A stretch of DNA of 64,000 nucleotides from assembly GCA_028713125.1 (NCBI GenBank), contig JAQTOU010000004.1, positions 198,835 through 262,834 of the forward strand. Direction: 5' to 3'. Below are positions 25,626-26,941 of this stretch, one piece after another (the first letter of the stretch is position 1; each line of letters begins with the position of its first letter). Under the pieces are notes generated by a model. That model did not search any database. It had not been told where the DNA came from and saw only the letters and a list, made by a program, of their open reading frames with translations. A program made the translations under genes and the position numbers. This stretch comes from Elusimicrobiales bacterium (GTDB taxonomy: Bacteria; Elusimicrobiota; Elusimicrobia; Elusimicrobiales; UBA9959).

Positions 25626-25653
25626 TTGACAACAGCTCTCTATCTGCTATAAT
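25626..25653 (+). promoter_or_regulatory. Near-consensus sigma-70 promoter of the leader RNA
   Basis: Perfect TTGACA at 25626-25631 and perfect TATAAT at 25648-25653 with a 16-bp spacer, the strongest promoter I see in the window. The start point would be near 25660, directly before the structured RNA, with no protein start in reach. Confidence 0.85.
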
Positions 25654-25659
25654 ATATTT

Positions 25660-25803
25660 GCAGTGCGGTGTAGTGCAGTGCCTCGCCCATCTGGCTTGGT
25701 AGTGAGCAGGTGCGGTGCAGTTGCGGGCGGTTGCGGTCGCAGACAGACGCGGTGCGGTAGCGTAGGCGCGGTGTGTGTCCCAGATGGGCGAGGCGTTTTA
25801 TTT
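25660..25803 (+). ncRNA. Unrecognised structured small RNA
   Basis: About 144 bases between the promoter and a terminator-like end. GCCTCGCCCATCTGG (25680-25694) pairs perfectly with 25780-25794 (15 bp), followed by GTTTTATTT. The ~85-base interior is rich in G and U and repeats GCGGT at least six times (near 25712, 25726, 25733, 25749, 25754, 25768), with little internal Watson-Crick pairing. That leaves it open to bind a protein or another RNA. It lacks the 4.5S GGAAGCAGC motif and tmRNA features. A 6S-like role is possible from the long closing stem, but I see no matching apical arm. Confidence 0.6.
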
Positions 25804-25810
25804 GGGTAGT

Positions 25811-25890
25811 GTCCGATAATAGCAAAGCCGGCTAAAGCCGGCGGCGCAAAGCTAAGACCCGCTAAATGCGCGGGGGTCAGGCTGCCGAAG
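25811..25890 (+). promoter_or_regulatory. GEMM-I cyclic-dinucleotide riboswitch aptamer, GEMM-Ib (cGAMP-type) signature
   Basis: The order of conserved blocks is that of GEMM-I: AATAGCAAAG (25818-25827), a hairpin GCCGGC-TAAA-GCCGGC (25827-25842), GGCGCAAAGC (25843-25852, A25848 as the base that stacks between the ligand purines), a second stem GACCC (25856-25860) with GGGTC (25874-25878), then AGGCTGCCGAAG (25879-25890) with the ligand-pairing C at 25885. The base three before the first AAA is A25821. This position is G in c-di-GMP aptamers and A in the cGAMP-selective GEMM-Ib group, where AAUA is also seen. The TAAA loop is not a GNRA tetraloop and the receptor is poor, a caveat. A terminator follows, as expected for an expression platform. 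Confidence 0.78.
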
Positions 25891-25937
25891 ATGAAAGACC
25901 GTCCGGTCAGTGCCGGCGTGTTTGGAACGGATTTAGG

Positions 25938-26009
25938 CCGTTTCTGCTGTCTTCGGGGTATTAGCCCAGCACCGGGTTAAGGCGAAGAGAGCAGAAGCGG
26001 TCTTTTTTT
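25938..26009 (+). terminator. Long terminator hairpin, likely riboswitch expression platform
   Basis: An 18-bp stem (25938-25955 with 25983-26000; one G-U, one G-G mismatch) around a 27-base loop, then a T7 run at 26003-26009. GGAACGG at 25924-25930 can instead pair with CCGTTTC at 25938-25944, taking the 5' arm of the terminator, so it is a candidate antiterminator between aptamer and terminator. Confidence 0.8.
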
Positions 26010-26166: not shown

Positions 26167-26194
26167 TTGCGAAACAGTATTTTTATATTATAAT
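26167..26194 (+). promoter_or_regulatory. Candidate promoter of the HEAT-repeat gene
   Basis: TTGCGA at 26167-26172, 16-bp spacer and perfect TATAAT at 26189-26194, in a strongly AT-rich patch. It lies inside the possible N-terminal extension and so supports translation from ATG 26264. Confidence 0.55.
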
Positions 26195-26263: not shown

Positions 26264-26941
26264 ATGTCCAAGCTTTATTTAATCTTATTACTATTATTGC
26301 CCGTCGGAGCTTTTGCCGCCGAAAAAAAGCAGCAGGCTCCCGCCGTCCCCGCGAAAAAGCAACAGGCGCAGGCTCCCGTAAAAAATATCACGAAGACCGA
26401 TGAGGTCCTGCTGCGGGAGCATCGCGCGCGTCTCGCTGAAATTTCAAATATAGAGAAAGCGCCCGGCCCCGGCAAAGCCGCAGCGCTTAAGCCCATGCTT
26501 TCAGACAAGAACCCGCTGGTGAGGGGGGAGGCCGCCGAAGCTATGGGCAAAACGAAGGACCCGGCCGCCCTTGGCGAGCTTTCCACGGCCGTAAAAAGCG
26601 AAGACGAGCATACCCGCTGGGGCGCGGTGCGAGGCCTGGCGGACCTGGGGGACAATAGGGCCGTGCCGCCGCTGATCACGGCGCTTGGCCACCCGGAGGA
26701 GAATACCCGCTGGAAAGCGGCGCAGGCGCTGGGTGAACTGAAAGATGTCCGGGCGGTCGACGCCCTGGCCGCGGCGGCCCGCTCGGACAAGAACAAAAAT
26801 GTCAGGCTGGCCGCTATCGAAGCCCTGATGAAAATAGGCGGTCCTAAGGCGGCTGCCGCAGCGGAAGGCCTGAAAAGCGACCCGGACCCGGAAATAAAGG
26901 CCTGGGCCGGAGCCGCGGCGGAAAAGCTGAAGCAGAAATAG
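26264..26941 (+). CDS. Exported HEAT-repeat protein
   Basis: A 225-residue protein with a signal peptide (MSKLYLILLLLLPVGAFAA), a Lys/Gln/Ala-rich linker, and four to five HEAT-like helical repeats of about 31 residues in the PBS-lyase style: NPLVRGEAAEAMGKTKDPAA, HTRWGAVRGLADLGDNRAVP, NTRWKAAQALGELKDVRAVD, NVRLAAIEALMKIGG. Such solenoids bind proteins; here it would act in the periplasm. The start at 26264 is chosen because it begins a textbook signal peptide and has a promoter 70 bases upstream. ATG 26096 has a better ribosome site but would bury the signal. It lies between the riboswitch leader and the giant gene. Confidence 0.75.
   Translation: MSKLYLILLLLLPVGAFAAEKKQQAPAVPAKKQQAQAPVKNITKTDEVLLREHRARLAEISNIEKAPGPGKAAALKPMLSDKNPLVRGEAAEAMGKTKDPAALGELSTAVKSEDEHTRWGAVRGLADLGDNRAVPPLITALGHPEENTRWKAAQALGELKDVRAVDALAAAARSDKNKNVRLAAIEALMKIGGPKAAAAAEGLKSDPDPEIKAWAGAAAEKLKQK

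Follow-up and report, generated by a model that had tools for sequence, protein, structure and literature searches.

Can the base at a single position tell which cyclic dinucleotide a GEMM-I riboswitch senses, and which genes does such a switch control in the Elusimicrobiota? The question is raised by an Elusimicrobiales locus within a 64 kb stretch of DNA, here called the window, for which the first-pass annotation proposed a GEMM-I riboswitch of the cGAMP-sensing subclass beside a Tad pilus island and a giant surface protein. Our best call is that this riboswitch belongs to an ordinary GEMM-I class and serves a new regulon. In the literature on Elusimicrobiota with riboswitch or c-di-GMP, we found nothing relevant.

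The aptamer and its target genes

Using cmscan, we found a GEMM-I aptamer as the sole Rfam match across the window. The RF01051 match at 25811-25889 on the plus strand scores 53.6 bits, above the gathering score of 35 bits (E 1.1e-7 for the whole window), and covers the model completely from position 1 to 87. In this alignment, model position 11, the column of Vc2 G20, is A25821, and the preceding trinucleotide is AAU. Model positions 12/37 are G-C (G21-C46 in Vc2), positions 13/36 are C-G (C22-G45), position 38 is A (A47), and the ligand-pairing C (C92) is present. A47, C92 and both pairs are kept in all 59 aptamers of the window's family that were read out. The window thus contains a real, full-length GEMM-I riboswitch aptamer, and the significant covariance match bears out the proposed class as well as the A, not G, that the first-pass annotation had read after AAU.

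The locus comprises the following features:

25626-25653, plus strand: sigma-70 promoter, TTGACA-16-TATAAT, 12/12 match, with TG before the -10
25681-25793, plus strand: conserved structured RNA element with a 14-bp stem (25681-25694 / 25780-25793) and a near-invariant inner motif at 25733-25757 (GCGGTCGCAGACAGACGCGG), then GCGTTTTATTT
25811-25889, plus strand: GEMM-I (c-di-GMP-I) aptamer; A25821 at Vc2 position 20, P2 loop UAAA, not GNRA
25937-26009, plus strand: intrinsic terminator, long stem plus U7, -40.2 kcal/mol
26167-26194, plus strand: second promoter-like site, TTGCGA-16-TATAAT, 10/12 match, downstream of the terminator
26264-26941, plus strand: first target gene, secreted HEAT-repeat protein of 225 aa; signal peptide MSKLYLILLLLLPVGAFA, PF13646 (E 1.8e-32)
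27086-64000, plus strand, continuing beyond the window as far as extended coordinate 70372 (C35:269206): second target gene, giant Ig-domain surface protein of about 14,428 aa with a signal peptide

The complete covariance match, A47, C92, G21-C46 and C22-G45 are shared with the c-di-GMP-I aptamers (RF01051; Vc2, Cd1). The window aptamer differs from Vc2 and Cd1 in having A20 for G20, a UAAA P2 loop for GNRA and a short P3 arm. Among its relatives, the P2 loop is GAAA, CAAA or UAAA, and the P3 receptor region is shortened. Docking of a GNRA tetraloop in the P3 receptor is a common, not a universal, feature of GEMM-I aptamers. The c-di-GMP-I-GGC variant (RF03167) also matches the window aptamer from end to end, with 47.5 bits against a gathering score of 59. 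We rejected it as the best family, since the score lies under the cut-off and the G at position 47 of the variant consensus is absent: by alignment with RF03167 and Vc2 numbering, the G of the window aptamer sits at position 43 and A47 is retained.

The leader begins downstream of the end of an S41 peptidase gene, and its order of sigma-70 promoter, structured element, aptamer and terminator is conserved. A TTGACA/TGCTATAATAT-type promoter lies upstream of nearly all class-1 aptamers, and the gene order promoter, aptamer, terminator, HEAT-repeat gene, giant gene is conserved in the genus. The structured element between promoter and aptamer, which has no Rfam match, sets the leader apart from those of Vc2 and Cd1, as does the control of a giant Ig-domain protein. 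Its stem is paired in 100% of the cells among 22 relatives, with 26 cells changed on both sides, a result reached in 0/500 shuffles. Each genome holds a single copy of the inner motif GCGGTCGCAGACAGACGCGG, which occurs nowhere but at this locus and in no other genus. The element could also act as a terminator.

The open frame of the giant gene extends from 27032 to extended coordinate 70372, which amounts to 14,446 codons, and encodes bacterial Ig domains (PF19077, PF12245, PF17957) and a FlgD/T9SS-like C-terminus. The giant surface protein of the first-pass annotation is therefore confirmed, and so is the Tad pilus island, where we identified a secretin, a T2SSE ATPase fused to a ParA/MinD-type domain and two T2SSF proteins. 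A regulon consisting of the HEAT-repeat and giant Ig-domain genes under the GEMM-I aptamer is well supported, which puts a gene that ranks among the largest in bacteria under cyclic-dinucleotide control. The Elusimicrobiota have been noted as a phylum with huge proteins (PMC11573180).

Position 20 and the ligand

In the window's family, 57 of the 59 aptamers read out carry A20, all of them with U19 and G21-C46. In the phylum outside this family, with GEMM-I aptamers in 139 of 341 genomes, G20 predominates, and A20 occurs sporadically in five others (f3, f5, f12, f13 and f23). Five genomes contain both forms (G033, G034, G061, G067 and G325); in G033, a G20 aptamer (L043:816) and an A20 aptamer (L043:4173) lie 3.4 kb apart. 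This sporadic distribution and the mixed genomes indicate that A20 is derived from a G20 background inside the Elusimicrobiota, and the change probably took place more than once. Among the matches listed for the exact pattern of A20 with AAU in GTDB are Clostridium, Paenibacillus, Desulfosporosinus, Omnitrophota, Anaerolineales, Deltaproteobacteria and others. Judged by this spread across many phyla, A20 is a common natural GEMM-I variant and no Geobacter signature.

Known cGAMP synthases are either Hypr GGDEF enzymes with Ser348 or DncV/SMODS proteins. We took the position of GacA Ser348 from the 6d9m alignment and read the corresponding residue in the eight GGDEF domains of the window's genome, which comprise three full domains (GGDEI, GGEEF, GGEEF) and five of a REC-GGDDF type. 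None of the eight has the Hypr serine, and all have Asp at this position. The five REC-GGDDF proteins (L035-L039; NPLTxLPG...GHIGGDDF) form a divergent GGDEF-like family that is also present in riboswitch-free relatives. Among relatives and other A20 genomes, Ser-type domains were found in 0/80 readings, all being Asp; adjacent genes are counted double among these readings, and at a few loci the reading pattern did not apply. In three A20-bearing Firmicutes genomes, Clostridium and Desulfosporosinus included, the best GacA-like GGDEF matches, a subset of the GGDEFs of each genome, were all of the Asp type. As a positive control, we ran the same search on four Geobacterales-type genomes, and each of them yielded two Ser enzymes. 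A search for SMODS in the window's own genome found none, and SMODS/DncV was rejected as a source of cGAMP there.

These results bear on the most specific claim of the first-pass annotation. Its GEMM-I identity and the A20 after AAU stood, whereas the step from A20 to a cGAMP-sensing subclass found no support in the form proposed, given that A20 is widespread, that a Hypr GGDEF was not found in the genome, and that the aptamer has G21-C46. Judging from sequence comparisons, c-di-GMP is most likely the ligand in preference to cGAMP, which might be tolerated owing to A20; we rate c-di-GMP, possibly in a dual role, at somewhat better than an even chance. The three full enzymes in the genome are canonical Asp GGDEF/GGEEF proteins, and at the pocket G21-C46 agrees with the pair present in c-di-GMP aptamers. 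Moreover, among the matches listed, Clostridia with exclusively Asp-type top GGDEFs commonly have A20 aptamers of identical core. It has been shown that the G11A mutation of Cd1, the equivalent of position 20, does not abolish c-di-GMP binding, and the same work describes the position as a selectivity factor rather than a hard filter (PMC9262584). Against c-di-GMP, the near fixation of A20 (57/59) in a mostly G20 phylum looks like selection on the ligand.

Sensing of cGAMP by the window aptamer is possible, while a selective cGAMP ligand appears unlikely; the remaining, similarly small share of our expectation goes to a ligand other than these two. For a truly cGAMP-selective, GEMM-Ib-like riboswitch, cGAMP would have to come from an enzyme lacking the Hypr serine or from an unrecognised synthase. 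This explanation, to which we would assign about a quarter of the weight, draws on the U19 that precedes A20 in 57/57 A20 aptamers of the family and on the G20 ancestors, sisters and mixed genomes of the phylum. The Geobacter cGAMP riboswitches of the GEMM-Ib type (4YAZ, pilM, pgcA) likewise have A20 after AAU, the solved example reads AAU-A (PMC7288161), and the G20A mutant of the GEMM-I aptamer Vc2 binds cGAMP (PMC6274999; 4YB1). However, beside the pocket the solved aptamer has C15-G40, where the window aptamer has G21-C46, a comparison that involves one solved reference (PMC6274999). In addition, the Geobacter switches are ON switches, and the host here is without a GacA-type Ser GGDEF. 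The missing Ser-type and SMODS/DncV enzymes, in a search that detects the former in Geobacterales-type genomes, and the wide occurrence of A20 outside cGAMP organisms argue further against selectivity for cGAMP.

A more far-reaching version would make the A20 aptamers of the whole family selective cGAMP sensors, which arose by a G20-to-A20 change, are fed by an independent pathway through REC-GGDDF or another non-Hypr synthase, and control the 14,400-residue surface protein together with its presumed secretion partner. We regard it as quite improbable. Since A20 and G20 alternate within one phylum and even within single genomes, and no Hypr enzyme was found, A20 alone is unfit for annotating cGAMP riboswitches. 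The Elusimicrobiota instead offer a natural test of how A20 affects ligand choice.

Geobacterales-type genomes (L399, L406, L411, L417, L436, L438; Desulfuromonadia) commonly carry a separate aptamer type, GCC-AAACC...ACGGAAAG with a C21-G46 closing pair, beside ordinary G21-C46 forms.

Terminator, antiterminators and the direction of switching

Two strands at the ends of the aptamer are complementary to the 5' strand of the terminator, UGCUGUCUUCGG:

25813-25823, plus strand: predicted antiterminator strand AT2 (CCGAUAAUAGC) at the 5' junction, containing A20; pairs with 25946-25956 (prefix folding)
25885-25891, plus strand: alternative antiterminator strand AT1 (CCGAAGA) at the 3' end, containing C92; pairs with UCUUCGG at 25950-25956

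The terminator itself, taken as 25937-26001, is supported by covariation, with 96.7% of the cells paired, seven pairs changed on both sides and 0/500 shuffles reaching this result. For AT2, 91% of the cells are paired, and covariation as proof of this A20-containing antiterminator had to be discarded as not significant (58/500 shuffles). AT1 is paired in 125 of 126 cells in 18 relatives, yet it is nearly invariant; every class-1a leader has a UCUUCGG complementary to the 3' end of its aptamer. Covariation leaves the antiterminator unproven because its pairs are nearly invariant.

Prefix folding of growing transcripts showed that the pairing of CCGAUAAUAGC precedes synthesis of the 3' half of the terminator. 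In the pre-terminator minimum free energy fold, A20 is paired with a U of the terminator 5' strand in 11 of 18 relatives; in the other seven, position 20 is not paired with the platform. The single G20 ortholog, in G033, has C as the partner of position 20 where A20 leaders have U, one compensatory change that is no more than suggestive. The long terminator beats the antiterminator thermodynamically, and the switch must therefore be kinetic.

From this leader layout, in which the aptamer ends pair with the terminator 5' strand, an OFF switch is predicted. Without ligand, the 5' junction strand with A20, the 3' end CCGAAGA with C92, or both would pair with UGCUGUCUUCGG, and RNA polymerase would continue. 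Once ligand is bound, the pocket would hold C92 and the base at position 20, and the UGCUGUCUUCGG strand would be released; the terminator would then form and transcription would end. High levels of the cyclic dinucleotide would in this way turn off a costly surface protein. Taken as a whole, a GEMM-I riboswitch in the leader of the HEAT-repeat and giant Ig-domain genes that acts as a transcriptional OFF switch, most likely on c-di-GMP, stands at about an even chance.

The same aptamer could work as an ON switch in the style of Geobacter pilM, with the ligand preventing the terminator, as has been demonstrated for the Geobacter cGAMP switches (PMC9262584, PMC6456294). We consider this doubtful. 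In pilM, terminator and aptamer are mutually exclusive, whereas here they share no base, and the conserved complementarity runs between the terminator 5' strand and the two ends of the aptamer, which is the layout of the OFF switch Cd1, whose antiterminator links the aptamer 3' end and the terminator 5' strand (PMC9262584).

Transcription from the second promoter, at 26167, could circumvent the predicted OFF switch, and relatives have similar TATTATAAT sites at the same place, as judged by eye. That the aptamer-terminator unit mainly yields a short RNA or attenuated leader, with the HEAT-repeat and giant genes driven from 26167-26194, is nevertheless very doubtful, as a perfect promoter, aptamer and terminator kept throughout the genus, always before these genes, are hard to explain without read-through control.

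Further aptamers in the genus

The window's genome has two GEMM-I aptamers, that of the window (C35:224645) and one at C35:269485. The second, also with A20, starts 279 nt after the stop of the giant gene and directly before a gene for a PorV-like outer-membrane protein, an assignment made by motif (SYGAGARGLGMGGAFFAVADD...) and not by HMM. Throughout the genus, two such aptamers flank a long open frame at a distance of 35-53 kb from each other. Behind most class-1 leaders of the genus, the downstream frame has no stop as far as the sequence was read, and in the relatives where this is readable, class-2 aptamers lie 97-347 nt after the stop or the conserved C-terminus ...GGYIVRVKASSPKGSKVIMRKVGVIH.

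Folding of the class-2 leaders gave no one clear switching model. The second aptamer (L040:7486-7569; C35:269485) overlaps the start of the PorV-like gene, with the 3' strand of P1 reaching the AUG. A terminator-like hairpin (GCCCC...GGGGC-UUUUU) lies within the signal-peptide codons of this gene, and comparable hairpins are present in other genera.

A third aptamer class precedes genes for Kelch-type surface proteins elsewhere. In its members (L069, L078, L099, L105), the promoter -10 abuts the aptamer, and a decoy copy of the aptamer 3' part (GCCGGCCAGGCUACCGAA) just downstream forms the 5' strand of the terminator.
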